A stretch of 41,693 bases of DNA from a virus. Below are positions 21,623 through 36,524 of the stretch, in pieces. The first letter of the stretch is position 1. Each line of letters starts with the position of its first letter. A program made the translations under genes and the position numbers. Under the pieces are notes generated by a model, which saw only the letters and a program-made list of their open reading frames with translations, had not been told where the DNA came from and searched no databases. Location of the stretch: positions 1 through 41,693 of IMG/VR virus record IMGVR_UViG_3300046171_000345. One strand, 5' to 3'.

Positions 21623-22321
21623 ATGTCAATAACACCTCCATTAACAACTGGAAATTTTTTCGCCGACCCTAGAAGGAATCCAGATTTTTTACCTCCTAGC
21701 GATAATACTTTACATGGAGGTGGGTATGATGCAGGTAATAGCATTATGGCAGGAATTAATAACAGGATTATGGACTCACGGAGATGTTCTATAATTCAAG
21801 GAGCGTCCAACATAATAAATGCGAAATACAATACTCACGTTATTGGGGATTTTGTTGAAGCTTCTGAGGATAATTGTTTTTATGTTGGATGTATTAATGG
21901 CATGCAGGTCAAGGGGCAGGTTAACGCTCCATCTATTTATTCCCAAGGAAATATATTTGCAGAAGGTGATATTATCGCAGAGGGTGATATTACCGCAGCA
22001 AATCTTTCTGATAAAAGACTAAAAGATGATATTTCCTTAATAGATAACCCTTTATCTAAAATAATGTCTCTAGATGCAATCGAATTTAATTGGAACGATA
22101 AGCAATCGACTCATCAAGGTCACGATATCGGATTAATAGCCCAGCAAGTTGAAAAAATTGCTCCAGAAATAGTGCAGGAAAGGAAAGATGGGTATAAAGC
22201 TCTTAAATACGAAAAGGTTATTCCTTTGCTAGTCGGCGCAATTAAAGAACAGCAAGAAAAAATACAAATACTAAATGACCGCGTAGAATATCTATTAAAA
22301 AAAATAGACTCTATGAGTTGA
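21623..22321 (+). CDS. Short fibre protein with peptidase S74 intramolecular chaperone
   Basis: Residues 1-100 contain YadA-head-like turns similar to those near the end of the giant fibre (GGGYDAGNSIMAGINN, SIIQGASNII). Residues 127-232 are a peptidase S74 (endosialidase-type) chaperone: LSDKRLKDDI at 128-137 with Ser129, Asp130 and Lys134, then FNWNDKQSTHQGHDIGLIAQQVEKIAPEIV, written here as two parts FNWNDK and GLIAQQVEKIAPEIV. It ends in a coiled coil. Such domains help fibres trimerise and then cut themselves off at the Ser. The protein is short and separate from the giant fibre, six bases downstream. Its 3' end overlaps the convergent minus-strand gene by 11 bases. Confidence 0.88.
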   Translation: MSITPPLTTGNFFADPRRNPDFLPPSDNTLHGGGYDAGNSIMAGINNRIMDSRRCSIIQGASNIINAKYNTHVIGDFVEASEDNCFYVGCINGMQVKGQVNAPSIYSQGNIFAEGDIIAEGDITAANLSDKRLKDDISLIDNPLSKIMSLDAIEFNWNDKQSTHQGHDIGLIAQQVEKIAPEIVQERKDGYKALKYEKVIPLLVGAIKEQQEKIQILNDRVEYLLKKIDSMS

Positions 22322-23150
22322 TTACTTTCATTAATATTCTTGATTCGGAAGGTGGAATATCTGAATAGTCGTTCCAATCTTTAACAGAATCATTTTGATA
22401 CAATCCTTTTTTCCAATAATCTCTTAATATAAATTTAAACTCTTCAAAATTAGAACAATTTAATTTGTCTTTTGCTAGTGATTCAATCATTGAATATGGA
22501 GTAATTGATCCTAGTTGAGAGTTTTGTTGAGGAGCGGATAGATTTGATTTGTCGATCTCATCATCTCCTACAATATGAACATTAAGAAAGTTTCTAACAC
22601 AGCGAACAAATGCTCGGTTACATGCAATTGTTTCTAAAAATTTGGTTGCGAAATTACTTGTGTTGTTTAATGTCGCGTTTGCCATATCTTGAAATGTAAC
22701 CGCTTGGCCACCTGTTTCATAATTTGGTAAAAACTTCATTTTGCAAGTTGCTGCTACGTGATCCATTTCACATTTAACAATATCATATTGTACATCCATA
22801 AAGCCTCTTAATTTTGCCAACTCTTTAATTCCGCTAAGCTTGATTAGTAGTTGATGATCTTTTAATCCTTCGATCGATCGAGGAACATCTTTCTTTCGAA
22901 GATCGAACCAAGATTTGTTTGGAAATAAATGCTCGTCCTTAATCATTGATCGCCAGTTAACAGAGCCGTCTTCTGCAAATACATAATCTACATTACCTAG
23001 TAGTCCGTATTCGTCTCTTTGGAACTTTGCTGGGCCGTCTGCGTATTTTTTATTCAACGCTCTTTTTGTTACGGTTGGCGAAGTGGTTGTAGATTCGTAT
23101 GTTACTGAATTATCAGATACTGTTTTTGTTTTGCGTGCCATGGTTGTCAT
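22311..23150 (-). CDS. Possible single-strand annealing or recombination protein
   Basis: The 279-residue protein has a central block, about 105-205, arranged like a Rad52-type annealing fold. A helix and loop (LSGIKELAKLRGF) are followed by two strands (VQYDIVKCEMDHVAATCKM) and then a helix with IACNRAFVRCVRNFL, comparable in place to the Ala/Arg-rich helix of Rad52 and Erf/Sak proteins. I know of similar unnamed proteins in aquatic phages but cannot confirm the family from sequence alone. The first 45 residues are Thr/Lys-rich and likely disordered. The ATG at 23150 or the one at 23141 (MARKTKT) could be the start. It lies at the distal end of the minus-strand operon and overlaps the upstream gene by 38 bases. 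Confidence 0.45.
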   Translation of the reverse strand: MTTMARKTKTVSDNSVTYESTTTSPTVTKRALNKKYADGPAKFQRDEYGLLGNVDYVFAEDGSVNWRSMIKDEHLFPNKSWFDLRKKDVPRSIEGLKDHQLLIKLSGIKELAKLRGFMDVQYDIVKCEMDHVAATCKMKFLPNYETGGQAVTFQDMANATLNNTSNFATKFLETIACNRAFVRCVRNFLNVHIVGDDEIDKSNLSAPQQNSQLGSITPYSMIESLAKDKLNCSNFEEFKFILRDYWKKGLYQNDSVKDWNDYSDIPPSESRILMKVINS

Positions 23151-24300
23151 CGTTATAAATTTTTAGTGTGTTTAATTCTTCCCAAAATTCTGGGCAGTCT
23201 ATGATTTTATTCTCTGTCGCTGGCACATCATGAATCCATGCAGCTTTACTTGCATATGTTTGTCCGTTTGATATGATAGTTCTAGAGTTTTTATAACGAG
23301 TATTATCGCATATTTTATCAACATTGTCAAGATCTTTTTTTGTTTTATCTTGATGTAGTGTTATATTCCAGTCAAAAAACTTTAATCTTAAATCATTAAT
23401 TTCATTTTCATTTTTGCATATTAGATTTAATGGTATGCCGTTTTTCTTTAGTGATTGAATGTAATTTTCATCTGTATCTGATGATACTATATAATTGATT
23501 CTTAGTATACTAGATTTTATTGCGAGTAGATATTGCAATTTCATTGGTTGGTCTAGGAAGATGTTTGCCATTCGTCCATACGCCCACTGTGCAATATTCT
23601 GTTCGTCAAAACATTCATCTCCTAGGATGTTTATTGAGTTGCCTTTTATGAAGTCTGTAGGCATTACATGATTTGGTATTACAGATATTGATGGTAGATG
23701 ATATTCTTTACCAATGTGAAATGTTTCAATGTTGTTTAGATTATTTTTTATATCAAGAAGTTTTAATACAGATTGCGCGATTTTCTCGGGCATAATCATG
23801 TTTATGGTTTTTGGGTTTTCTTGGTTTGAAAACGAAGCCTTGTGTCCACCGCGGTGAGATTCAAATAATTCGTGATTTTCTTTTTTGCCCCAATATGGGC
23901 CGCAACATTCTTTGTATAGTATACTATATAGTGAAACTATTTTTTTATCAAAGCCTGATGCTACATGAGTGCTAAATGAATCATTTCCAAAATGTAATAA
24001 ACTATTTTGTATAATATAGAATGTTTGTTTTAGATTTGTTAATCCTGTATAATGTAAACAGCCATTTATTTTTTTATCGTCTTTCTCTCCTATTTGTATG
24101 ATGTCAATTCCTTCTTTTTGTAAATAGGGGAAAATCATTTGTATTACTTCATTATAATAGTCGTAATTTTTGGCTTGCATGCCGCTGTTGGCGTGCAGTG
24201 TTATGTACTTTTTAGATGTGATTGGGAAGAAGCAAGTTTCAACAAATGGTTTGTCGATTTTTACTCCACAAGATAATGCGTATTGTTCTATGAGGTGCAT
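23113..24300 (-). CDS. GT9-like glycosyltransferase C-terminal half plus unknown domain
   Basis: Residues 32-200 look like the second Rossmann lobe of a GT9 (heptosyltransferase-like) enzyme: YITLHANSGMQAKNY (32-46), IIQIGEKDD (67-75), and FGNDSFSTHVASG (104-116), where GT9 enzymes bind the sugar nucleotide. The first lobe is missing here but is present at the C-terminus of the gene upstream. Residues about 225-395 form another domain I do not recognise (QWAYGRMANIFLDQP, LRLKFFDWNI). The ATG at 24300 lies 13 bases inside the upstream gene and has no Shine-Dalgarno. One extra A before it would fuse the two frames as KIQFDLMHLIEQYA. It is either an indel or a true split read by translational coupling. 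Confidence 0.72.
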   Translation of the reverse strand: MHLIEQYALSCGVKIDKPFVETCFFPITSKKYITLHANSGMQAKNYDYYNEVIQMIFPYLQKEGIDIIQIGEKDDKKINGCLHYTGLTNLKQTFYIIQNSLLHFGNDSFSTHVASGFDKKIVSLYSILYKECCGPYWGKKENHELFESHRGGHKASFSNQENPKTINMIMPEKIAQSVLKLLDIKNNLNNIETFHIGKEYHLPSISVIPNHVMPTDFIKGNSINILGDECFDEQNIAQWAYGRMANIFLDQPMKLQYLLAIKSSILRINYIVSSDTDENYIQSLKKNGIPLNLICKNENEINDLRLKFFDWNITLHQDKTKKDLDNVDKICDNTRYKNSRTIISNGQTYASKAAWIHDVPATENKIIDCPEFWEELNTLKIYNDDNHGTQNKNSI

Positions 24301-26198
24301 AAGTCGAATTGAATTTTATCTTTACCATTGTGCATATAATTTAACATTCTTTGAGTTCCTATGTGAGGTAAGAAGGCTATTTCAAAATAACCTTTATGCT
24401 GCCCCTGCCCTTCAAGTAATACTAAGCTGTCTAATGATTTAGAATATGGAATGGTTTTGTGAATATATGGATTACCTTCTAAGATGATAAAGTATTTTTG
24501 TTCTGTTGCGAAGTATATATTATATTCTGGGTATACTTCTTTTATATTTTTTAATAATGATGTACATAGATAAACATCACCTATACTTTGAGGCATGCAT
24601 ATCAATAACCTTTTACCTTCATCGTCTTTATCTAGTAATTCTTCAAATTTTATTTTTTTGTTTTTTCCATTTTCTTTTTCTGCAACTTTTTTAAAGTGAT
24701 CTAATACATCTTTTCTTTTTAGATCAGTAGATAATCTTTTCATCCAATGTTTATGACCTTCGTCCGAATCTTTTATGTCGAGTTTTAGAATGTTTTTGTA
24801 TATATCTTTTAACCAGTCGGAATCTTTTTCAATCTCGGGCGGCTCATAGTTGGGATCTCTCTCTTCTGAAGAAAATTCAAAATCCCAGTTTATCTCTGGC
24901 ATTGCGTCGATAATCTTTTCAAGTTTTTCACAGACAGCTTCAATGCTGTAATTTTTAATAACAAATTCTCTAGCCTGCTTGCCTAGCGCCTCTATTTTTT
25001 CAGGTTTCATTTTGAATACCTTTTTGAGTTGACTTGCGATGCTGTTTGCGTCTGTACTTGCTTTAATAAATTGCGTTCCTGGTTCTCTATATTCACTCCA
25101 GTTTAACGCGAAACCTCCGCTGTCTGGTGTGCAGCAATCTTCTCCACAACTGTAGTTTGTTACTAGCGTTACAAGTTCTGTTAACTTAGCTTCTTGAATT
25201 GGTATTTCTTGACCACCACTTGTAAATGGGTGGCAATAAACGTCCATCATGTTGTAAATTTCATTCAACTGTTCTTCGTCGATACCTAATTTACTACTTG
25301 TCGTTGCTTGCGATTTTTTTGAACCACAGTGGCCACAGTCAATATCTTCACCTTCGTAACTTTTAACTTCGTATTTTTTACATTTTTTACAAACATAAGT
25401 TGTTAAGACCCTCGACTTGTCGATGCCTTTCTCGTCCATTAATCTAGTTATATCCCACCCTTCTTTCCAGTGGGTGTGAAGTAGCAACTTTGCAGAAGAG
25501 GATGGGTTTTGCTCACAGAAAATTTTGAATCCCTCAAGTAAATTCGGTACGCTTTTTCTTAATTGATTTCTGAATACGAAACCTATTATAAAATCGTTTT
25601 CTTTAATGTTGTTGTTTTTTCTCAGAAGTTTTCTTTGGTCTTCTGGCAACTTGGAGAAATTTTTTGTATCAACTGCTCCATGTAGGGTTTTTACGTGATC
25701 GTGACCCATTTCATTCAAGGCTTTTTCTGCAAATGTAGACCAAGTATAGTAGTTTTTTATTTTAGGCGCAGCTTTAACTGCGTCTGGAAGTATGGGTAGG
25801 CTGTCTAAAGTTGTCCAAATCATACAATTGGTTTTATTCCACCAAGGTCTTTCCGTATAACCCGTGAACGCCCATATATCTTCTATACCTATGTATACAT
25901 CAGGTTTTTCTTGCTTGATTATGTTATCAATTGTATAGTTACCGTAAGCTGCTGATCTAGCTAAATTAGGGTCTTTATTTAATTGCTGCAATAATGCTGG
26001 ATTATCTGGTAGTGACCCCTCACATTTCCATGGTAGCATTTTAAGAGAAGCGTCTCCGCTCTTGATTGAGTTTGAGAGCTCTACTAAATCATATTTTCCA
26101 GTTTTGTATAAATGAATTAATATATTCTTAGTATGCTTCCCGAACCCAGTAAAAGCCTTACAATGATTACTGTGAATTAAGACTTTCTTTTTCTTCAT
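24288..26198 (-). CDS. GT4-like glycosyltransferase with zinc ribbon, linker domain and GT9 N-terminal half
   Basis: The 636-residue protein has a GT-B glycosyltransferase (about 1-430). FTGFGKHTKN at 16-25 is the N-terminal loop and FTSGGQEIPIQEAK at 325-338 carries the conserved Glu pair that holds the nucleotide sugar. A four-cysteine zinc ribbon is inserted at 270-291 (C270, C273, C288, C291). Residues about 461-510 (WLKDIYKNILKLD, HWMKRLSTDLKRKDVLDHF) resemble the small DUF4214 helical domain. From about 529 a second enzyme begins, with LLICMPQSIGDVYLCTSLL (531-549), the GT9 N-terminal lobe, which ends abruptly at the stop. Its other half is the next gene. The ATG follows the preceding gene's TAA directly. 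Confidence 0.82.
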   Translation of the reverse strand: MKKKKVLIHSNHCKAFTGFGKHTKNILIHLYKTGKYDLVELSNSIKSGDASLKMLPWKCEGSLPDNPALLQQLNKDPNLARSAAYGNYTIDNIIKQEKPDVYIGIEDIWAFTGYTERPWWNKTNCMIWTTLDSLPILPDAVKAAPKIKNYYTWSTFAEKALNEMGHDHVKTLHGAVDTKNFSKLPEDQRKLLRKNNNIKENDFIIGFVFRNQLRKSVPNLLEGFKIFCEQNPSSSAKLLLHTHWKEGWDITRLMDEKGIDKSRVLTTYVCKKCKKYEVKSYEGEDIDCGHCGSKKSQATTSSKLGIDEEQLNEIYNMMDVYCHPFTSGGQEIPIQEAKLTELVTLVTNYSCGEDCCTPDSGGFALNWSEYREPGTQFIKASTDANSIASQLKKVFKMKPEKIEALGKQAREFVIKNYSIEAVCEKLEKIIDAMPEINWDFEFSSEERDPNYEPPEIEKDSDWLKDIYKNILKLDIKDSDEGHKHWMKRLSTDLKRKDVLDHFKKVAEKENGKNKKIKFEELLDKDDEGKRLLICMPQSIGDVYLCTSLLKNIKEVYPEYNIYFATEQKYFIILEGNPYIHKTIPYSKSLDSLVLLEGQGQHKGYFEIAFLPHIGTQRMLNYMHNGKDKIQFDLCTS

Positions 26199-26756
26199 TT
26201 AAAAAGGAGCTTCTTGCGGTAGTTCTGTAGGTTTTGTTTCTTGTTGTTCTTTTTTGTACTTTTGTATGTTTTTAATTTCTTCTTTTCTTCTGTGTGAGTA
26301 CAACTCTTGTAGGTAGAATTTAAAAAATTGATCTAAGTTCTCAACTTCTCCTGGTTCAAGCGGAACCCTGAACGATTGATTTCCGTTTCTTGTGAATGTA
26401 ATTCCGAAAGCAGGTAGTGTTATTGATCCGTTTTGAGTTTTTGATTGTTTATCCCAAGGTACAAACTTGATTGATGTTTTATTATCTTCGTAACTGTGGA
26501 ATGCCGAATATTCATATCTCCTATTGAAAGCGCTAATTATTCCACCAATCTCAAATTCACTAAATTTTAAATTGATATTTTTTTCGGGGTTATCCTTGTT
26601 GCCTGAAAAGTTTCCGGATTTTTTCTTATCATCCCAACTGTACTGTTGGATCGCGCTAACATAAACGACTGGTTCTTTATTTCTGTTTACGCCGATTTTA
26701 AAATTAAAAGCGCACCCTAAATTCTTACTGTTTGGTTTATATAATGAAATACTCAT
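26199..26756 (-). CDS. Putative ssDNA-binding protein, PC4/Whirly-like
   Basis: The natural start is probably the ATG at 26756 (MSISLYKPNS), not the TTG at 26774, because a promoter -10 box sits in between. The protein of about 185 residues has a compact beta-rich core (GCAFNFKIGVN, VVYVSAIQQYSWDDKK, NINLKFSEFEIGGIISAF, TSIKFVPWD) like small ssDNA-binding proteins of the PC4/Whirly type in other phages. It has a Gln/Lys-rich helix and ends in PQEAPF, resembling the partner-binding tail of SSB. It lies inside the sugar cassette but is not a sugar enzyme. It has its own promoter, so it may be expressed separately. A second, classical SSB is at 36517. The family call is tentative. Confidence 0.5.
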   Translation of the reverse strand: MSISLYKPNSKNLGCAFNFKIGVNRNKEPVVYVSAIQQYSWDDKKKSGNFSGNKDNPEKNINLKFSEFEIGGIISAFNRRYEYSAFHSYEDNKTSIKFVPWDKQSKTQNGSITLPAFGITFTRNGNQSFRVPLEPGEVENLDQFFKFYLQELYSHRRKEEIKNIQKYKKEQQETKPTELPQEAPF

Positions 26757-26797
26757 AACAGATACTATAACCAAACTCTATTTTGTCAATTTTTTAT
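26757..26797 (-). promoter_or_regulatory. Promoter of the PC4-like gene, apparently leaderless
   Basis: On the minus strand, TTGACA (26789-26784) is followed after 16 bases by TAGTAT (26767-26762). Only five bases (CTGTT) then remain before the ATG at 26756, so the transcript should start at or next to the start codon. There is no Shine-Dalgarno sequence. Confidence 0.6.
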
Positions 26798-27667
26798 TTA
26801 TAATTCTTTTATATTGTGACACCAACGTTCTTCTGATCTTAATGCATCATACTTTCTGTAACTAGAAGTCCAGATTCTGTTTGGTAAACTATTTATTCTT
26901 ATGATATCAAAATGCTTTTGCATTAACTCAACAGATTTTGTATAGTCGAATTGATCGCGGCTATTTTTTATTGGGTCAAAATATGTTTCAAGCGCCGCTT
27001 TACAAATGATTTGTTCTGGGGAAAGTTTTGTCGGTATAGATGATAGTTCGGTTGATTTTTCGAAAACCTTTATCATTCGACTTGTTTGTCCTCCTACAAA
27101 GTGATCAGAGGGATGAAATTTAATTTCATTATCAAATCTAAAATATATATTAGAAGTTACAAGTTTAAACCAATTATAAATTCCTTTTTCGTTTTTACTA
27201 TCTCTATTCTCTTTTATCTTTTTTAGTATAGGATTTATTACAGGATAAGATTCATCTGATCTAAATTTTACTGAGAGAAAGTTTTTCGCTGCTTTGAGCC
27301 CTTCTAATGTAGAGTAGTTTTGAAAAATATAAGGGTTCTTTGCTCCAGACCTTACAGATAGTTTTGAGGCTTTTTTGAAATCGTTGATTACTAATGTAAT
27401 TTTATCTTTGTATTTTTCTATTAAATTTAAATTATCATTATCCCAGCAAGACACAATTACTTCGCCGTATTCTAAATATTGAGGTATTGTATTTATTGAT
27501 CTTAAATGAAGTGGGCCTTGTATAATTATTGATACTTGATCCTCTGACTTTTCAAACCTTTTTAATAAGTTTTTTTGCAGAGTGATCGCAAAATTAGTAA
27601 AGCTTGGAACGTAATTTAATTCTTTACCTGATTGATCTTTTAGTTTATGAGGGTTCCATCGATTCAT
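26798..27667 (-). CDS. WavE-like lipopolysaccharide/glycan glycosyltransferase
   Basis: The 289-residue protein fits the WavE family (named for a Vibrio cholerae LPS core gene). The conserved opening SIIIQGPL is at 46-53, a Cys-Trp strand (VSCWDND) is near 72-78, FRSDE lies at 135-139, and SDHFVGG at 187-193. These are the family's usual substrate-site stretches. It probably transfers a sugar to a glycan. Its start overlaps the GDPD-like gene by four bases and its end is followed by a 41-base gap holding the next gene's promoter. An alternative label would be a generic capsular polysaccharide transferase. WavE enzymes have been little studied, so the acceptor is unknown. Confidence 0.8.
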   Translation of the reverse strand: MNRWNPHKLKDQSGKELNYVPSFTNFAITLQKNLLKRFEKSEDQVSIIIQGPLHLRSINTIPQYLEYGEVIVSCWDNDNLNLIEKYKDKITLVINDFKKASKLSVRSGAKNPYIFQNYSTLEGLKAAKNFLSVKFRSDESYPVINPILKKIKENRDSKNEKGIYNWFKLVTSNIYFRFDNEIKFHPSDHFVGGQTSRMIKVFEKSTELSSIPTKLSPEQIICKAALETYFDPIKNSRDQFDYTKSVELMQKHFDIIRINSLPNRIWTSSYRKYDALRSEERWCHNIKEL

Positions 27668-28086
27668 ACTAAGAAGTCAGAGCATAAGCCAAAGCAGGGC
27701 GGCCCTGAGTAATTTCTAGCGTCATCTACAACTAGGACACTTTTATTGCTAACTCTTTTGCCAGGGTAAGTCCAGACGAAGTTTCTGGAGGTTAAAGTAA
27801 AGTCGTCTGTTTCATGCCAAAAATAGTTTAGTAATGTAAATTCACTAAGTATATCTAACGCTTCTAGGTTTTTGCAATGAATCCATAAATGCTTGAAGTT
27901 TTTTATTAAAAATTTCATAGGGCACGGACTCTCTGGTTTATCGTGCCCCAACCAGAGCTGGTTTCTAGCCCAGACATCTATTTCTACATCAAACCCTTTA
28001 TCGAGAGCTTCCTGTATGTAATCTATAGTGTTCTCTCTTTCTGGCTTAGGGCCATTAATATTTCCTCTATGGGAGACGAATATCAT
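27664..28086 (-). CDS. Glycerophosphodiesterase-like protein (short GDPD)
   Basis: The 140-residue protein has the recognisable GDPD pattern: SHRGN at 5-9, ENT at 18-20, the metal-binding pair Glu35/Asp37 in VEIDV, and GHD at 47-49. It is about half the length of normal GDPDs (around 250 residues), so the barrel is truncated, and the second half (WIHCKNLEALDIL, NYFWHETDDF, GLCSDFL) is a conserved closing region of this short type. In sugar loci such proteins may process phosphodiester-linked substituents. The position next to a sugar nucleotidyltransferase supports a role in a glycan, not in lipid breakdown. It overlaps both neighbours. Confidence 0.75.
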   Translation of the reverse strand: MIFVSHRGNINGPKPERENTIDYIQEALDKGFDVEIDVWARNQLWLGHDKPESPCPMKFLIKNFKHLWIHCKNLEALDILSEFTLLNYFWHETDDFTLTSRNFVWTYPGKRVSNKSVLVVDDARNYSGPPCFGLCSDFLV

Positions 28087-29443
28087 GTTTTAAAAAAGTA
28101 TCTAGATCTTCAGGGGTTCCAAGTCCCCACATCTTATCTATATTAAAAGTTTTTACTCTTGCCCCGATTAATAAAGCTTCGTTATAAACTGGGCATACAT
28201 AGAATTCATTATTGACTCTTATATTTTTCTCGACCATAGATTCTGCACATGAAACATAATCACTTCCTTTTTTCCAGAAATAAATTCCAACTGTAGCGTT
28301 ATCACTAATAGGTTTCTTTTCCGCAACTTCCGTAACAAACCCCTCTTCGTTTAATTTTGCATAACTCCATTTTGGGTGGGTCGAGCGAAATGTTAAGATT
28401 GAGCCGTCTATATCGTCCGCCATGCAGGAATACATAAATTGATTACTCTCCCATTCGACATACTGATCTGAGTTTGCTAGAATTAATGGTTCGTCATTAT
28501 TTATAAATTCTTTAGCGAGTAATGTGGTGCATGCAGCGCCCTCCGTCATGCCCTCCACTTGAACTATTTCGCAATTCGGAGATATCAAATTTAAAGTATG
28601 TTGTAGGGAGTATTTTTCGTAGTGAGATTTTTGAACAATAAATATGTGTCTTGCGTCGATGTTTAGATTCTCTACAACTCTCTGTATCATGGGTTTACCA
28701 TTGACATCTATTAAGGGTTTAGGGAAGGTATATCCCGCCTGTTCAAATCTGGAGCCAGCTCCAGCCATGGGTATTAATACGTTCATTTTGCCTCCTTGCC
28801 ATTTTGGTGAAATTTGCGATTTTTTATCTGCATTAAGTATAGTACTATTAATTTTATCAAATGTCAAGTCATTAGAATCCTTGACTGCGCATAAATGTGC
28901 GCCACTTCTTATTGCACCCTTTCTTCCTATGTGAGAATCTTCAATGATTACTGTCTCGTCAGGGTTGACTCCGACTTTTATCATGCATCTCATGTATATC
29001 TCGGCGTTGGGTTTCGGGTTGTTTACGTCTTCATTTGAATATAAAAAATCTATATAATCAAAAAAACCTTTTCTTATTAGCATTAATTTTGAAGTCTCTC
29101 TTATAGAGTTTGTTGCGCATGCAATTTTGTAGTTTTTCGATTTTAATTTTTTAAAAATATCTATTATTCTGTAGTCGCGCTGATAGTTATCTATTTCTTG
29201 TAATGTTTTTTGCTGCTTAAGTTTCCAGATTCTGTTGTGATATTTTTCTGGAAGATTTTTTTCGGAGCTTAACTTTTTTAATTTTTGAGTTGTTGTTAAT
29301 GCATCGTATTTACAAAGATGTTCTTCTTTACTAATTGTATATTGATCACCTATTTCAGATAGAGCTTTATTGAGTGCGATGTAATGTAATTCGCGAGAGT
29401 CAACTAACACTCCATCTAGATCAAATATAATTAATTTAATCAT
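28067..29443 (-). CDS. Bifunctional HAD phosphatase - sugar-phosphate nucleotidyltransferase
   Basis: Residues 1-205 are an HAD-superfamily phosphatase or phosphomutase with all four motifs: FDLDGVLVDS (7-16; Asp8 and Asp10), CATNS (109-113), the Lys of NPKPN (Lys144) and IIEDS (167-171). Residues 220-458 are a nucleotidyltransferase with GAGSRF (228-233) and KPLIDVNGKPMI (242-253), the nucleotide-binding start of sugar-1-phosphate NTP transferases. The pair could dephosphorylate a sugar phosphate and then activate a sugar. The joint at residue 220 has a strong internal Shine-Dalgarno and ATG, so the second domain may also be made alone. It overlaps its neighbours by a few bases. The sugar is not known. 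Confidence 0.88.
   Translation of the reverse strand: MIKLIIFDLDGVLVDSRELHYIALNKALSEIGDQYTISKEEHLCKYDALTTTQKLKKLSSEKNLPEKYHNRIWKLKQQKTLQEIDNYQRDYRIIDIFKKLKSKNYKIACATNSIRETSKLMLIRKGFFDYIDFLYSNEDVNNPKPNAEIYMRCMIKVGVNPDETVIIEDSHIGRKGAIRSGAHLCAVKDSNDLTFDKINSTILNADKKSQISPKWQGGKMNVLIPMAGAGSRFEQAGYTFPKPLIDVNGKPMIQRVVENLNIDARHIFIVQKSHYEKYSLQHTLNLISPNCEIVQVEGMTEGAACTTLLAKEFINNDEPLILANSDQYVEWESNQFMYSCMADDIDGSILTFRSTHPKWSYAKLNEEGFVTEVAEKKPISDNATVGIYFWKKGSDYVSCAESMVEKNIRVNNEFYVCPVYNEALLIGARVKTFNIDKMWGLGTPEDLDTFLKHDIRLP
28786..28797 (-). promoter_or_regulatory. Internal Shine-Dalgarno and ATG at the HAD/nucleotidyltransferase joint
   Basis: AAGGAGG (minus strand, 28797-28791) is followed by CAAA and then the in-frame ATG whose first base is 28786. 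This ATG is Met220, the first residue of the nucleotidyltransferase domain (MNVLIPMAGAG). The site is one of the clearest ribosome-binding sites in the window and sits exactly where the domain begins. Confidence 0.75.
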
Positions 29444-30137
29444 CTATATAAGTTAAGTATTTTTTCCAATCATCATGTATTCTTATATCATGCTTGCCTT
29501 GGTGGTCCATAAATAAATGACTTTCTATTTTATTATAAAGAGCCCAATATAGAAGTACGCTATTAAAGCCTATGAATTTTTTACTTTGACTGATAACTTC
29601 AAGCGTTTCCTTGAGTGAAGATTTGCCACTAAAGCTTTTACCGAATGAGGGTTTGGTTTCTTCTATGCCGACCCAGCAAACTTTGCTTTCGTTAAAATTA
29701 ATTTTTTTTAAATATTCCAGTATCGGCCTTTTGTTTATGTGCCTTTTTTTTCCTTCGTTTTTGACTCCGCCATTTACTTGTATGCATAAATCGTATTTTT
29801 TCTCAACCGCATTGTTTGTGTGTGGATTTTTGAGGCCTTCATCGATACAAGGTTGCCAGTGAAAATCTCTAGGTGGGCATTTTATGCGGCCATGAGCGCA
29901 CACATTAAAGCATTTATCAAATTTATAATGATTAGTCTGCCACCAGTGTCTCAAGTTGGGGGTGTGTATTAATTGATGGTTTATATTAAATATATTTAAT
30001 AGTTCGCCGCACATTAATAGCTTTTCTTTGGTTGATTCTATGTGGGTATACAGTTGGTTGCGCTCTCCTTCAAGTAGTTTGAGTATGATTATCAGGCAGT
30101 CGCCAACTCCGCCATAACCTAGCGACTCTCGCGTCAT
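29436..30137 (-). CDS. GT9-like glycosyltransferase (small)
   Basis: This protein of 233 residues opens with LGYGGVGDCLIIILKL (6-21), a glycine-rich N-terminal loop like that of GT9 or GT-B enzymes (GG.GD). It ends with KKFIGFNSVLLYWALYN (186-202), the place where GT9 enzymes hold the sugar nucleotide, here with Phe-Asn in place of the usual Asp-Ser. It is shorter than typical GT9 enzymes (about 320-350 residues). A block of Cys and His (VCAHGRIKCPP, about 79-90) lies between the halves and could bind a metal. The ATG overlaps the FkbM gene's stop by four bases. The identification is moderate; it could be another small GT-B protein. Confidence 0.65.
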   Translation of the reverse strand: MTRESLGYGGVGDCLIIILKLLEGERNQLYTHIESTKEKLLMCGELLNIFNINHQLIHTPNLRHWWQTNHYKFDKCFNVCAHGRIKCPPRDFHWQPCIDEGLKNPHTNNAVEKKYDLCIQVNGGVKNEGKKRHINKRPILEYLKKINFNESKVCWVGIEETKPSFGKSFSGKSSLKETLEVISQSKKFIGFNSVLLYWALYNKIESHLFMDHQGKHDIRIHDDWKKYLTYIDD

Positions 30138-30754
30138 AAGATCAGGCTTACATTACCCCACGTACCTGATGATTTATAGCCTATTTTGCAGAAGGAGTCT
30201 ATAACGCTAAGACAGTCTTCTTTGTCGCTCAGTGGGTTGATTTCGAAAATAATTTTTTTAGCAGGTTTAGTATTTTTTTTATCTAGCGCTGATAAGTATG
30301 ATTTTAGTATTGTTGCGTCGTGGCCTTCTGCGTCTATTTTTATTAAATCGCAAGAATCTATCTTCTGCTCTTCGATTAACGATTCGAAGGAAAGTATTTT
30401 AATATCAGATTCGCTTATAAATCCATTGTGTAAATTAAATTTATCAACTAATTTAAGTTGTGCGGGATGAGCTTTGTCTATGGAGTTGCATCCTTGTATG
30501 TATGCGTACATTTTGAAATTTAAACCCCTATCTTTGCAGAAATTTTTAATGGTGTCTTTTTTTATATGAAAGACTTTCCCTGATCTGTCTTGATTGCTTA
30601 TTGCATAGTTTAATTTTTTAACATTGGGTTTGTCTGGTAGGTCATTTAGATATTCTTTTACCGGGTCAATTGACAGGCCCTTAGATTCGTTTGAGCACTG
30701 CTGTATGATAGTCTCAAAGTTAGATGTTCCTATTTCTATAAAATTGTATTCCAT
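30134..30754 (-). CDS. FkbM-family methyltransferase
   Basis: The protein has the motif order of FkbM-type SAM-dependent methyltransferases: EIGTSNFET at 7-15 (SAM-binding motif I), SIDPV at 28-32, and the signature IKIDAEGHD at 138-146 (usually KIDVEGAE), followed by a closing strand (KKIIFEINP). It is 206 residues, the common length. FkbM enzymes O-methylate sugars or polyketides; here the neighbours are glycosyltransferases, so methylation of a glycan is likely. The short spacer upstream (19 bases) holds a TAAACT hexamer seven bases before the ATG, a possible weak promoter. The 3' end overlaps the GT9-like gene by ATGA. Confidence 0.83.
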   Translation of the reverse strand: MEYNFIEIGTSNFETIIQQCSNESKGLSIDPVKEYLNDLPDKPNVKKLNYAISNQDRSGKVFHIKKDTIKNFCKDRGLNFKMYAYIQGCNSIDKAHPAQLKLVDKFNLHNGFISESDIKILSFESLIEEQKIDSCDLIKIDAEGHDATILKSYLSALDKKNTKPAKKIIFEINPLSDKEDCLSVIDSFCKIGYKSSGTWGNVSLIL

Positions 30755-30773
30755 TTATTTTAGTTTAATTGCG

Positions 30774-31454
30774 TTAAATACCTGTCCAGTTATTTTTTAA
30801 ATAAACATAGTCTTCCTCTTCTGGGAATAGTTCCACATATTCTTTTGTTTTGCCTTTCGGTATGTTCTTTGGGTTTGGTTCTATATGCATTAATATTTTT
30901 TTTTCATATTTGAGGATTTCTGGAACTAAATGCTCGGTTAAGAAATATTCATCTGCGCCAAATTCAGATAAGGGGTCTTTATATTTATTCATTAAGTCTG
31001 CAATTTTAAAAGGTAGATTTCTACCGCCAAAGCAACCTGCCATATAGTACCTTCTATTTTTCCTATTCCAAGCTGAAAGCCTATCATGAGCGAGCCATAC
31101 AAAATGTAATAAATAATCCGTATTTAACCATTCGTTGATGGATGTAATATCATTCTGCTGTATCTGAAAATCTAAATCCCTACATACCGCTACGTCACAA
31201 TCATCTAACGCTAGAAATCTCCAAAAGCAACCTTCTCTACCTTCTCCTTTGGGCATTTTTATGCATTCGGTATTATTAATCGACTCAACAGATTTAATTA
31301 TATTTAATGGAGCTGTATCATCAAAATACAATCTAAAATTCCAATCGGGCATATTCTCTGATACAAATTTAGCATTCCTTGGTGCCCCTAGTGCATATTT
31401 GTGGTACGCTGCTGGCCTACTACCAAATAAAGAAGTTGATATTACTTTTTTCAT
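30774..31454 (-). CDS. GT-A-like glycosyltransferase with RDLDF motif
   Basis: The protein has 226 residues. Its middle has EGCFWRFLALDDCDVAVCRDLDF (74-96, given as EGCFWRFLAL and RDLDF), where the Asp-Leu-Asp pair fits a metal-binding DXD-like motif of GT-A sugar transferases. Similar proteins occur in many aquatic phage glycan loci, but the family lacks a settled name. A second block (YYMAGCFGGRNLPFK, about 146-160) looks like an acceptor loop. The gene overlaps the methyltransferase gene upstream by four bases. The sugar donor is not known. I am fairly sure it is a transferase and less sure of its class. Confidence 0.65.
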   Translation of the reverse strand: MKKVISTSLFGSRPAAYHKYALGAPRNAKFVSENMPDWNFRLYFDDTAPLNIIKSVESINNTECIKMPKGEGREGCFWRFLALDDCDVAVCRDLDFQIQQNDITSINEWLNTDYLLHFVWLAHDRLSAWNRKNRRYYMAGCFGGRNLPFKIADLMNKYKDPLSEFGADEYFLTEHLVPEILKYEKKILMHIEPNPKNIPKGKTKEYVELFPEEEDYVYLKNNWTGI

Positions 31455-31987
31455 TTTTTTTGTAAAGCTGCTAAATGTTGACCAGATGAAATCTCGTCTA
31501 TTAAATTATATTTTTCTAAAACAGATCTATAATGCTTTCTGCATGGATGCCAATCATGCATAAAGATAATGCAGTCCTTATCTACGAAGTCGTACATATA
31601 TCTAGCGCACTGAGGCCTAGCTCTTCCGTCTATTAATATTTTTGTGAATTTTTTATTAATTTTCGAACCTGTTTCTATGTATTCTTTGTAGGCTTTGTAT
31701 ATTTTAGTTGTATAGAGTTGGTTCCATTTTACTGCATGTTTTTGATTTGGGTCTTCTGGTCTTACGACTGGAACTGTATGCATTGTGACATTTTTTGGCA
31801 TAATTTCTTTAACTGAATTAGCCCACTTAGGGTCTGATTCGATACTGTAGTATTCTTTTACATATTTAGGAAAAAACATGGTACTACCTCCACAACCATA
31901 TTCGAGCATTATATCATCTTTTTTTAAAAAACTTAATACGAGATTGATCTCCTCTTGAGACATCCATGGTTGATTTGGTACGTTCAT
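31451..31987 (-). CDS. Class I SAM-dependent methyltransferase
   Basis: The 178-residue protein shows SAM-binding motif I at 29-36 (EYGCGGST), the acidic strand at 47-53 (YYSIESDP), a strand with the catalytic-side Asp at about 115-120 (TKILIDGRARP), and a closing FMHDWHPCR (143-151). The pattern is like small methyltransferases of polysaccharide loci. Being the second such enzyme in the cassette, it may modify a different sugar position than FkbM. It overlaps both neighbours by four bases, so translation is probably coupled. An alternative is a DUF-type protein that binds SAM without methylating. Confidence 0.75.
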   Translation of the reverse strand: MNVPNQPWMSQEEINLVLSFLKKDDIMLEYGCGGSTMFFPKYVKEYYSIESDPKWANSVKEIMPKNVTMHTVPVVRPEDPNQKHAVKWNQLYTTKIYKAYKEYIETGSKINKKFTKILIDGRARPQCARYMYDFVDKDCIIFMHDWHPCRKHYRSVLEKYNLIDEISSGQHLAALQKK

Positions 31988-32886
31988 TTTAAATACTTAT
32001 TTTCGGCATGAGTTTTAATTTCATTAAAGACATCTTCACTCCAAGTGAAATCATCTTGATATGAACCGTAAACATCTTGATCACACCAACCAGCTTCCCT
32101 AAAATTATTAGGTCTGCTATGTTCTCCTATTTCTCCTATATATTCAAAATTGTTTGTAAATGTTGAGACTTTAATCATACCTCTTGAGACTAAAGCTGAT
32201 GAAGTGCAGGAATCTTGACTTGATACAATTTTATTTGGATCTACTCCAAATTGAGACATATATTCAAGTATTTTTAAATGAGGGCGAGCTCTATATTCCT
32301 GAGGTAATAAAGCCCAGAAACCCTCCATGATATCTAAGATTTTTTCATAAGAGCTTCTTCTCATTGCGTAAGCCCACATGTGATCCATTAAAATTAATTT
32401 ATCTTTATTTTCTTGTTGTTCTTTTAATGTAGTTTTTGAATCTAAATCATCTATGTAATTGATGTATGAATATCTATGACTTCTTTTTGATCTATGATGT
32501 TCGCCGAAACAATTTATCATAGCTACCCTTTCGTCATCTTTGAATAATTCGATAAGTCTATCTATTTGTTGTATGTAGTGGGGCTGTAATACGGAGTCGT
32601 CTTCAATCAATATTAAGAATTCGTTTTCTTTAAAAACCATTTCTCTTGATAGTTTCATTATTCCCGCTACTCCAAGGTTCATCTTTGGAACAAAGTTTTT
32701 AGAGTGAGGTATGATTTCCTTAGATAAATCAATACATTTTTGAACGGCAGGAATCTCTTGTTGGAATCTTGGCGCATCAATAAAGCAATAAACTTCTCTA
32801 TCCCAACATTGTGGAGATAGGGATTCTAAAACTTTCTTAAAATAATCAGGCCTGTTATATGCCGTTAGTACTACTGGAGTCTTCAT
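31984..32886 (-). CDS. GT-A glycosyltransferase (GNT-I/GT13-like)
   Basis: The 300-residue protein starts with VVLTAYNRPDYFKKVLESL (5-23), the typical opening of GT-A sugar transferases. It has LILIEDDSVLQP (91-102), where Glu-Asp-Asp is the metal and nucleotide-sugar binding motif in GNT-I-like enzymes (also seen in POMGNT1). A His-rich loop follows (GEHHRSKRSHRY, about 128-139). An unusual late block carries FREAGWCDQDVYG. It probably adds GlcNAc or a similar sugar to a glycan or protein. A short gap upstream contains a -10-like hexamer. It overlaps the methyltransferase gene by four bases. Confidence 0.8.
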   Translation of the reverse strand: MKTPVVLTAYNRPDYFKKVLESLSPQCWDREVYCFIDAPRFQQEIPAVQKCIDLSKEIIPHSKNFVPKMNLGVAGIMKLSREMVFKENEFLILIEDDSVLQPHYIQQIDRLIELFKDDERVAMINCFGEHHRSKRSHRYSYINYIDDLDSKTTLKEQQENKDKLILMDHMWAYAMRRSSYEKILDIMEGFWALLPQEYRARPHLKILEYMSQFGVDPNKIVSSQDSCTSSALVSRGMIKVSTFTNNFEYIGEIGEHSRPNNFREAGWCDQDVYGSYQDDFTWSEDVFNEIKTHAENKYLK

Positions 32887-32913
32887 ATAACGATACTAAA
32901 GAAAACTTAAATT
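32887..32913 (-). promoter_or_regulatory. Candidate leaderless promoter before the GT-A gene
   Basis: On the minus strand TAGTAT (32898-32893) lies six bases (CGTTAT) before the ATG at 32886. It is close in sequence to the box at 26767-26762 (TAGTATC then GTTA in both). The -35 position has TTAGAT, a weak match. No Shine-Dalgarno is present. Confidence 0.45.
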
Positions 32914-33642
32914 TTATCTAATTAATTTTGTTTTTATATTTCCGAAATTATTTAATCCTGTTAGTTTTTTGTATTTACAGTTTTTTGATTTTAAGCATAT
33001 TGTTAATACAGATTCTGGCACCTTGATCATATATTCTGGATAACCTTCGTTCCATAAGAAATTTACAGCCTGCTCGACTTCGTTTAGGCAGCTCATGTAT
33101 TTTTGCATATACTCGATACTTCCAACCGCAATTTGGTCATTAACTTGCTTTGGTAGTGCTGCTTGGTCATTGACGAAACTAAATGCAAATTGTTTTTTTA
33201 ATTCTTCTTCATGATTGTATATATTATTACTCTCGAAATAAGGCAATCTAATATGATTATTGTCAATACAGTCTTGTAATTCGTATTTTTTAATTGGTTC
33301 CAAAACTTGGATGTCTGGTCTGAGTCTAATGACCAAATCATATATTTTTTTCTTTTTTGGTAATAATTTATAAACTGATTTCATATTAAATAGCATGGGA
33401 ATTAATCCTGCGCTAGGTTGATATGGTAGATCATCTTTATTTATTGAATAATTATATGCATCGCTTGGCCAAGTAATAAATTTTTTTACTTTGTAATATT
33501 CATTAAATTGTATATAATCTTCATCGTTCCATGTTGATAAATATATATCTGGTTTGAGTGGATTTATTATGTTTTGTAGTATAGAATCGGTACATGATTT
33601 CCAATTACCGAGCTTACCACTGAAACAAAGTGCTACTTTCAT
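32914..33642 (-). CDS. Glycosyltransferase-like protein (ALCFSG type)
   Basis: The 242-residue protein opens with MKVALCFSGKLGNW (1-14) and has YDLVIRLRPDI at 101-111, a pattern seen in a family of phage and bacterial sugar transferases of capsule and LPS loci. The Asp of RPDI is in the place of the donor-binding Asp. The sequence after 160 (FSFVNDQAALP, DQIAVGSIEYMQKYM) matches that family's acceptor side: the transferase presents a check for a DQ/GS pair. It overlaps the GT9-like gene by four bases and is followed by a 27-base gap with a promoter-like box. The donor and acceptor are not known. Confidence 0.68.
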   Translation of the reverse strand: MKVALCFSGKLGNWKSCTDSILQNIINPLKPDIYLSTWNDEDYIQFNEYYKVKKFITWPSDAYNYSINKDDLPYQPSAGLIPMLFNMKSVYKLLPKKKKIYDLVIRLRPDIQVLEPIKKYELQDCIDNNHIRLPYFESNNIYNHEEELKKQFAFSFVNDQAALPKQVNDQIAVGSIEYMQKYMSCLNEVEQAVNFLWNEGYPEYMIKVPESVLTICLKSKNCKYKKLTGLNNFGNIKTKLIR

Positions 33643-34589
33643 TCAGTTATATATTCAGTAATATCTCTCTGCCCTATTAGCTTCTCTATGTTGTCAAGAA
33701 GAAATGGATAAAGTTTATAGGCGGGGTTTCTTAATGTATTTTTTACGATTTGCCCTGCGGTTTTAACATCGTGGTGCATTGGAAGAATGAATTTATCATC
33801 AAATAACCATCTTATTAAATATGAATATTGTACTTTACCGTATTGTTTGCAATACTTAGAGAATGTAAATGTTGGTTTTGAATAGTGGTATGGTATATAT
33901 CTTATTCCAGAATCCACACCAAGCGCAGCAACACACTTACTTGATAAATAAAATATCTCTCGAAGTGATGCATGTATGAAGTGTACTTTTTCTAAATTTT
34001 TTGCAATTAATTTTTCGTATTTATGTTTTGATTGTTCATCATATAAAATAATAATATCAAATTCTTGTGATATATTCTCTATTAGTTTTTCGATATACCA
34101 ATCTTCCATGTTTGAATCTGCATTGTCTCTTGCATATAAATGAGCCAAGATAAATTTATCAGGTGTTTTTATATTAAGATCTGCGCGATTTTCTGGAGTT
34201 GGAAAGGTTTTAAAATACTTTAGCCAATCATAATCATGGTTGAGCCAGCCAAGAGAGTCAATATGCAGATCGTAAAATAAATCATATTCTGATGTCATTT
34301 TTTTATAAATTTCATCGGGTACGTTTTTTATTGAACTTGGATAATCCTCATTCGGGAAGTTTGCGCATTTAATTTTTAAATTTTTATACTTTTTTTCTTC
34401 AATTATAAATGTATTATCGAAGTGGGATGGCCACATTTCATTCAAGATAGATGATTGAAGTTTATTTCCTTCTGTATCCGAGTATAAATCTATAGAGCAA
34501 GAAGGGTATTTCTCTTTTATTGCAGGTATAAAACGATTAGCCGCGAAATGATCTCCTAACCCTCCTTCGATTCTTACCGAAATTCTCAT
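33639..34589 (-). CDS. GT9-like (heptosyltransferase-type) glycosyltransferase
   Basis: Residues 8-15 (EGGLGDHF) carry the Gly-rich N-terminal loop of GT9 enzymes, and residues 224-228 (GVDSG) are the donor-binding Asp-Ser-Gly of that family; the total of 316 residues is normal. GT9 enzymes transfer heptose or similar sugars in LPS core. The start is supported by a good Shine-Dalgarno (GAGGGGAG, spacing about five to six bases before the ATG at 34589), which lies in the end of the winged-helix gene. This is the first sugar enzyme of the minus-strand operon. Confidence 0.8.
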   Translation of the reverse strand: MRISVRIEGGLGDHFAANRFIPAIKEKYPSCSIDLYSDTEGNKLQSSILNEMWPSHFDNTFIIEEKKYKNLKIKCANFPNEDYPSSIKNVPDEIYKKMTSEYDLFYDLHIDSLGWLNHDYDWLKYFKTFPTPENRADLNIKTPDKFILAHLYARDNADSNMEDWYIEKLIENISQEFDIIILYDEQSKHKYEKLIAKNLEKVHFIHASLREIFYLSSKCVAALGVDSGIRYIPYHYSKPTFTFSKYCKQYGKVQYSYLIRWLFDDKFILPMHHDVKTAGQIVKNTLRNPAYKLYPFLLDNIEKLIGQRDITEYITE

Positions 34590-34963
34590 GTAATCTCCCC
34601 TCTTACCATTACAGCTCCACCAAGAACTATTGTATTTAATTGAGTTAACATCTTATTGCAAGTCTTCCTTCTTTTGATATGCTTAGCTCTATACAGTCTG
34701 CCAAGACTTGCGGAAATCTTACCGTAAGACATGCCTCCAAGATCCTCAGCAATCCTTTCGTTCGAGAAGAATATAGGCTTACCGTGCCCCGCCTTTGATA
34801 GAAGATAGTTGTAAACAACAAGATCGTTGCCAATTAAGTTTCCTTCGATAACGTCTTGTTGAACTGCCACTGGAATTTGTATAAACTTTTTCATAATTCG
34901 TAATATCATATCAAGAAAATTGCTTTTGGTCAAGTTAAATCTAAAAAAATCAATTCTGGTCAT
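34586..34963 (-). CDS. Winged-helix DNA-binding protein (HTH_36-like)
   Basis: Up to 125 residues. The core (LIGNDLVVYNYLLSKAGHGK, FFSNERIAEDLGG, YGKISASLGRLYRAKHIKRR) has the layout of a winged helix: a first helix with a VYNYLLS strip, SNE..AEDL as the second helix, then the recognition helix and a Lys/Arg-rich wing. The same layout occurs in HTH_36-type replication and regulatory proteins. The ATG at 34963 is preceded by TACAAT seven bases upstream; a second start at 34894 (MKKFIQIP) is also possible and would remove a hydrophobic N-terminus of unclear use. It is the first gene of the minus operon, so it may control it. A perfect palindrome lies over its -10 box. Confidence 0.68.
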   Translation of the reverse strand: MTRIDFFRFNLTKSNFLDMILRIMKKFIQIPVAVQQDVIEGNLIGNDLVVYNYLLSKAGHGKPIFFSNERIAEDLGGMSYGKISASLGRLYRAKHIKRRKTCNKMLTQLNTIVLGGAVMVRGEIT

Positions 34964-35922: not shown

Positions 35923-36524
35923 ACGACGAAGAAGATCAAACACTAATACAAAACATACAAAATAAGCGCAACGAAACAGACAGTTTAAATGAGCTCGTTA
36001 ATAGGCATAGCGGAATCTATCTTGAAATGGTAAATGCATTTTCTTCTCCAGGAAATCAATTTGTAGATAGAAACGAGTTAATACAAGAGAAAGAATATAG
36101 AATTTATAAAGCAGCCTTAAATTACGACGAAAATAGAGGAGCAAAGTTTAGTACATATTTAGGCAACGAAACAAAATGGTTATGTTTAAATACTTACAAC
36201 AAAAACAGAAGGAAACCTATTTTTCAATCAGAGTTCATAGAAAACTGCCAAGGCGTACAGGAAAGCGAAGGCCACTCGGATATTTCTGAAAGCTTGAAAA
36301 AAGATCTTTTTGATAAAGTATTATCTATATTAAACACACACCCAGACAAAAGAGTAGAGAAGATATTTAAAATGAGATATGTAGTAGGTCAAGAAAATAA
36401 AGTTATGCCATGGAAAAATGTTTGCAGTAAAATGAAATTAAGTATACAAGGATGTATAAATATCCACAACTCAGCAGTAAAATACGTACAACAAGAATTA
36501 AAGGAGGAAATAAGTTTTGAATAA
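35919..36524 (+). CDS. Sigma-70 family RNA polymerase sigma factor
   Basis: The 201-residue protein has a sigma region 2-like helix set at about 22-100: LNELVNRHSGIYLEMVNAF (24-42), LIQEKEYRIYKAALNYDENRGAKFSTYLGNETKWLCLN (about 56-93; given in parts as YKAALNYDENRGAKFSTYL and ETKWLCLN). Here FSTYLGNETKWL is in the place of the FSTYA..WIR strip that binds core polymerase and the -10 box. The C-terminal helices (KNVCSKMKLSIQGCINIHNS) look like region 4. Such phage sigma factors often switch on late genes. The neighbouring structural genes have unusual -10 boxes (GTGTAATATA), which it may recognise. Confidence 0.8.
   Translation: MNDEEDQTLIQNIQNKRNETDSLNELVNRHSGIYLEMVNAFSSPGNQFVDRNELIQEKEYRIYKAALNYDENRGAKFSTYLGNETKWLCLNTYNKNRRKPIFQSEFIENCQGVQESEGHSDISESLKKDLFDKVLSILNTHPDKRVEKIFKMRYVVGQENKVMPWKNVCSKMKLSIQGCINIHNSAVKYVQQELKEEISFE

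Follow-up and report, generated by a model that had tools for sequence, protein, structure and literature searches.

A ribosome-binding-site-like string in the linker of an old phage HAD-nucleotidyltransferase fusion is probably a by-product of the linker peptide

Here, we report that a virus record of 41,693 bases (the window, i.e., the whole stretch of DNA that was analysed) encodes a fusion of a HAD enzyme and a nucleotidyltransferase (NTase), and that the string AAGGAGG at the joint of the two domains, which resembles a Shine-Dalgarno (SD) sequence for an internal start, is probably for the most part a by-product of the linker peptide of an old bifunctional enzyme, with the full fusion as its main product. 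The fusion is old and broadly distributed, the string originates from the linker peptide, and the internal start codon has been lost repeatedly among the relatives. A preliminary description of this gene had proposed either a recent fusion of two overlapping genes or a dual-output gene that makes both the fusion and the free second enzyme. We found no paper in the open-access literature that describes this fusion or a dual start in it.

Results

Two complete domains in a single frame

As previously described, the two enzymes lie in one frame, a single 458-aa ORF (Table 1). Pfam assigns HAD_2 to residues 5 to 187 (E = 1.5e-29) and NTP_transferase to residues 226 to 393 (E = 9.9e-11); the C-terminal domain belongs to PF00483 (Nucleotidyl transferase) with 42.1 bits against a gathering score of 21.2, and it matches PHROG 3980 (E = 1.7e-75). 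Among 30 relatives, HAD residues D8, D10, H20, K76, K144, E168, and D169 are invariant, and so are G228, G230, R232, F233, P241, and K242 of the NTase G-x-G-x-R-F ... P-K motif, i.e., one frame carries two complete domains, both with their catalytic motifs. The AlphaFold model of the fusion has a mean pLDDT of 90 and a pTM of 0.57, and the orientation of the domains is thus uncertain. In this model W215 to P225 form one beta strand running through the joint, so that the linker is predicted to be part of the extended first beta strand of the NTase, which gives a protein-level reason for the conservation of the linker.

Table 1 Coordinates of the fusion gene, its parts, and the downstream gene in the window
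Feature	Position	Strand	Basis
HAD-NTase fusion gene	28067..29443	-	Single ORF, 458 aa; Pfam; homologues over the full length from virus contigs, phages, and cellular genomes
HAD domain, residues 1-190, beta-PGM-like, subfamily IA	28874..29443	-	Pfam, invariant motif residues
Linker, residues 191-219, ending W215-Q-G-G-K	28787..28873	-	Alignment of relatives, predicted structure
SD-like AAGGAGG, codons CAA GGA GG(C) of Gln216-Gly217-Gly218	28791..28797	-	Sequence, codon null, clade constraint
Third base of the Gly217 codon, the A of GGAGG	28793..28793	-	Synonymous constraint in the clade
ATG of Met220, candidate internal start	28784..28786	-	Sequence; codon compared across relatives
NTase domain, residues 220-458	28070..28786	-	Pfam, PHROG 3980, nearest structure 4evw
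Downstream gene, 140 aa, overlaps the end of the fusion by 20 bases	27664..28086	-	ORF

The HAD domain shares its fold, D8, D10, Lys144, and E168-D169 with beta-phosphoglucomutase (beta-PGM) of L. lactis (PDB 1lvh), a HAD subfamily IA enzyme, and shares H20 and K76 with enzymes of this kind as well. With 79.8 bits against an NCBIfam cut-off of 189.4, it lies outside the beta-PGM equivalog. Arg49 of beta-PGM, a phosphate-binding residue, aligns with Gly, and in the window with Ala48. By both sequence and fold, the C-terminal domain best matches the nucleoside-diphosphate-sugar pyrophosphorylase of Vibrio cholerae (PDB 4evw; E = 6.1e-26; TM-score 0.80 by target length), which is a standalone protein, whereas the window NTase is fused to HAD. 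The NTase is close to the RmlA-type fold; its scores are below the NCBIfam cut-offs of the equivalogs RmlA, GlmU, and AglF, the best being rmlA_long with 54.9 versus 320.25 bits.

The fusion is widespread and old

We obtained 223 non-redundant fused virus genes from six scans of virus contigs; please note that full-length fusion queries were used, by which fused matches are favoured, and that the last two scans re-found many of the same contigs. Eleven records of cultured cyanophages carry the fusion (51-59% identical over 98-99%), and in all five of those inspected a single long CDS is annotated that begins at the HAD start. S-CAM9 (AOV60556), S-PRM1, B23, DSL-LC03, and S-8S53/55/56 have the same domain order and length as the window, in glycosyltransferase cassettes. 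The linker of the cultured cyanophages reads W-R-S-E-K-M in contrast to W-Q-G-G-K-M in the window; S-CAM9 has TGG AGG there, i.e., GGAGG nine bases before the ATG, and B23 has AGA where S-CAM9 has AGG. In six virus contigs (L045, L051, L211, L215, L234, and L165) the match to the fusion query is split over ~2 kb, and these possibly hold a second, partial copy of the fusion nearby.

The cellular scan used NTase patterns only, so that separate genes could be found as well. It returned fusions in Pelagibacteraceae (SAR11), SAR86, Prochlorococcus, and Methylophilaceae, among others; HAD and NTase genes that are adjacent but separate turned up in, e.g., Micrarchaeota, Patescibacteria, Lachnospiraceae, Belnapia, and Methylorubrum. 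The NTase tree gathers nearly all fused genes in a single clade, outside which the separate genes root; one divergent fused gene (L524) groups with the separate NTases. The fusion is not recent, as had been proposed, since fused genes dominate a deep clade of phages, SAR11, SAR86, and cyanobacteria. The comparison with separate-gene relatives that the preliminary description called for places these outside the main fused clade, and most of them start one residue earlier: they begin M-L-N-I-V, the start Met aligning with K219 and Met220 with Leu or Ile. Met220 is thus not an old start codon, nor is it the exact first residue of the NTase that it was taken for. Close separate-gene relatives were not found in cultured phages, where the nearest NTases without this HAD (SynMITS9220M01, Bellamy, S-SKS1, and S-SM2) are ~31-39% identical.

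Two SAR11 NTases without HAD (L521 and L522) nest within the fused clade and probably arose by loss of the HAD. At both loci (L521, 2175-4078; L522, 107-2011; Pelagibacteraceae) the NTase is directly followed by a gene resembling the RuBisCO large chain (PF00016, E = 1.3e-40 in L521), and L521 also has a phosphodiesterase-like gene and a sugar epimerase. Other arrangements of these domains were seen as well. A Prochlorococcus contig (L477, 5166-6434 and 6413-7210, minus strand) has, by eye, an apparent NTase-HAD in the opposite order, with a GmhB-like HAD, next to a sugar-kinase-like gene and 1 kb from a HAD-NTase fusion, and it seems that this enzyme pair has been fused more than once. Cyanophages SynMITS9220M01 and Bellamy (L083 and L085, both 2498-3655) have a related NTase, 39% identical, in a 385-aa protein annotated "phosphatase", followed by what by eye is an RpiB-type sugar isomerase-like domain. 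Two separate-gene operons (L534, 2343-3717; L542, 4388-5748) combine a HAD with two NTase paralogues, one matching the fusion NTase and a second overlapping the end of the HAD gene.

The SD-like string is mostly accounted for by the peptide

AAGGAGG does lie four bases before the ATG of Met220, with CAAA in between, and the resulting AAGGAGG-CAAA-ATG is what a dual start calls for, i.e., an in-frame ATG with a plausible SD and spacing. Its pairing of -11.4 kcal/mol with a generic standard 16S tail, which may not be that of the host, is the strongest of the 136 in-frame internal ATGs in the 33 window genes; 3 of 516 out-of-frame internal ATGs in the window equal or beat it. Good SDs are indeed few, as had been stated: with the same anti-SD, 2 of 33 gene starts reach -8 and the median is +0.3, an approximate tally because the starts are mechanical ORF starts. 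SDs are hardly used by the window genome, and the fusion's own start has none (pairing +2.0 with the standard anti-SD). Both strong SDs at window starts (34589, minus strand; 36501-36517, plus strand) are embedded in the 3' end of an upstream gene that overlaps, which suggests that this phage keeps SDs for overlapping starts and that embedded sites may be used in the window.

In our codon null the peptide was kept, codons were drawn according to the gene's own usage, and the pairing was recomputed. The draws average -9.8 and reach -11.4 or better in 38% of cases (p = 0.38). Over the 92 relatives with WQGG and Met, the mean pairing is -9.66 observed versus -9.68 in the null. In neither the window nor this group is the SD stronger than peptide and codon usage predict; the Q-G-G peptide forces most of the pairing strength. 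The string is spelled by the Gln-Gly-Gly codons of a W-Q-G-G-K linker whose invariant Trp is placed in the first strand of the NTase by the model, and its likeness to a ribosome-binding site would arise mainly because a conserved peptide is encoded in an AT-rich, GGA-using genome. The argument that such a string is unlikely by chance therefore fails for its strength, which the peptide explains, and stands for its A, which is exceptionally constrained in the clade of the window (see below). According to published work, internal SD motifs are little if at all depleted, even upstream of internal AUGs, and may be inconsequential (PMC6107199), the SD usage of cyanophages resembles that of cyanobacteria (PMC6847405), and real in-frame proteoform pairs exist whose alternative starts have a stronger SD context than the annotated ones (PMC11005335). 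The fusion gene resembles the E. coli/Salmonella Ribo-RET pairs of the last study in that its in-frame start has a better SD than the annotated one, which is typical of those pairs; they are documented by ribosome profiling and blots, whereas the window site is a candidate predicted from its sequence, and in the HAD-NTase family the internal start codon varies.

No coupling of start codon and string among the fused relatives

A Trp stands five residues upstream of Met220 in every virus gene (223 of 223), and position 220 itself is Met in 183 of these genes and Leu in the other 40. Taking virus and cellular fused genes together, this codon is ATG in 205 and something else in 65 of 270 (TTA 33, TTG 14, CTT 7, CTA 6, CTG 2, ATA 2, GCC 1), i.e., the internal start codon is not conserved across the fused relatives. 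A site that is not conserved while the fusion is was the outcome that the preliminary description took to speak against its proposal; it is found family-wide, and in the window's clade only in part, where the ATG is kept in 53 of 53 members and GGAGG is absent from several of them. Three relatives (L304, L306, and L316) keep CAA GGA GG with CTT, CTT, and CTA at the start position, i.e., a strong SD without a possible start, and the K-S-D clade keeps the ATG without any SD. A freshwater clade spells GGT GGT and has lost the ATG in a third of its members; "no SD" here means no GGAGG core, as its GGUG pairs weakly (-8.1) with CACC of the 16S tail. The ESK-clade cyanophages fix GAG (31 of 32 versus 37%), giving GGGAG, a second hint of SD-type constraint. 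Seven fusions with a W-E-D linker (L480, L485, L488-L491, and L516; SAR11 and one gammaproteobacterial MAG) read TGG GAG GAT, which puts GGGAGG eight bases before the ATG; their close relatives use GAA, GAG is probably rare in these genomes, and an independent SD-like site is possible.

SD strength showed no association with the presence of ATG among the 104 WQGG genes (38/86 versus 8/18, odds ratio 0.99, p = 1). In 19 independent Met/Leu pairs, a set of limited power, the SD was stronger on the Met side in 9 and on the Leu side in 4 with 6 ties (p = 0.10), and p was 0.59 when peptide and codons were controlled. A start-like drop in RNA structure at the joint and a start-like drop in GC3, i.e., AT-rich third positions at Met220, were both looked for and are absent.

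Constraint on the Gly217 codon

In the clade of the window, no three-codon stretch of the gene shows less synonymous variation than the Q-G-G codons (rank 1 of 470), which rank 5/452 and 2/455 with disjoint pairs. Gly217 is GGA in 36 of 46 sequences of this clade against a background of 36-41%, a binomial comparison that ignores kinship; the sequences being related, we did not rely on such counts and used Fitch counts, disjoint pairs, and tree simulation. The third base of Gly217 changed 7 times in 46 sequences, 0.15 per sequence versus 0.28 for the next glycine column, and in a narrow clade 2 times in 27 (0.07 versus 0.27). No other glycine codon position of the gene is as constrained in this clade (p < 0.001 versus tree simulations). 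From the peptide by itself such constraint would not be expected, and it is the strongest evidence in favour of the preliminary description. The freshwater clade without GGAGG has its joint codons at rank 8/445, also at the top of its glycine columns; a clade without GGAGG thus constrains the same codons, which speaks against a constraint specific to an SD.

Discussion

If Met220 is a second translation start in the clade of the window, the gene would give the fusion plus the free NTase, and the ratio of the two activities would change. This reading has real points on its side: the SD of Met220 outranks all other in-frame internal ATGs, the ATG is retained throughout the clade, the A of GGAGG is under exceptional constraint that holds with disjoint pairs, the fusion's own start has no SD, SAR11 has standalone NTases (L521 and L522), the ESK cyanophages fix GAG, and both strong start SDs of the window are embedded in upstream genes. 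We nevertheless consider it unlikely, as the peptide accounts for the SD strength, several clade members without GGAGG still have the ATG, and the freshwater clade, a third of which has lost the ATG, shows constraint on the joint codons too, spelled GGT GGT. An NTase made from Met220 would also have a truncated first strand and lack the invariant Trp. A gene with dual output is disfavoured overall, since the start codon is not conserved, the SD is uncoupled from it, there is no structure or GC3 signal, and a clade without GGAGG is constrained alike. In its evolutionary form, this reading says that the window's aquatic-phage clade secondarily fitted the linker of an old fusion with a ribosome-binding site, and that other lineages may have done likewise in a slightly different register (GGGAG in ESK, GGGAGG in some SAR11); we regard this as doubtful.

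A pause of the ribosome on the SD-like string, which would let the HAD fold before the NTase emerges, fits the location of the string at the domain boundary, a synonymous constraint that needs no start codon, and the SD-like strings carried by Leu-bearing relatives; the string is missing, however, from many relatives that have the fusion, and we think such a pause very unlikely. Hardly credible at all is AAGGAGG as the fossil ribosome-binding site of a former NTase gene that recently fused with an overlapping HAD gene. Separate adjacent HAD and NTase genes do exist, and in one such pair (L512) the NTase start is closely preceded by an SD-like AGGAAGG that overlaps the HAD stop. But the SD-bearing clade is far younger than the fusion, the start residue of most separate NTases corresponds to K219 rather than Met220, and every virus clade, including several that lack GGAGG, conserves Trp215; the NTase tree and the offset of the start residue led us to reject it.

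We thus return to the bifunctional enzyme with a peptide-derived string as our preferred reading. The HAD, a phosphatase or phosphomutase, would most likely prepare the phosphate of a sugar or polyol, which the sugar-type NTase would then activate for the neighbouring glycosyltransferase genes or surface-glycan cassette. The fusion would hold the two activities at 1:1, possibly with channelling between the domains, and no significant second product would be expected. A conserved linker peptide can give rise to what looks like an internal ribosome-binding site, and the codon null, start-codon loss, independent contrasts, and synonymous constraint together are a recipe for judging such sites. 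The HAD-NTase fusion is common to aquatic phages and abundant ocean bacteria, so that phages may repeatedly carry genes for the supply of nucleotide-sugar or nucleotide-polyol. If the constraint in the window's clade does reflect real internal initiation, these phages would tune the ratio of two coupled activities by a single base.

Genomic neighbourhood of the fusion

The fusion lies in a glycan-type run (22311-34963, minus strand) with WavE-like, FkbM methyltransferase-like, and glycosyltransferase-like genes, most members of which have no Pfam hit; tail genes stand on either side. Matches to tail-type PHROGs elsewhere in the window (tape measure and minor tail proteins) suggest that the virus is a long-tailed phage. 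No Pfam family was found for the 140-aa downstream gene. By eye, it resembles a small protein of DSL-LC03 annotated glycerophosphoryl diester phosphodiesterase, and similar small phosphodiesterase-like genes adjoin the fusion in SAR11, Prochlorococcus, Belnapia, and Lachnospiraceae.
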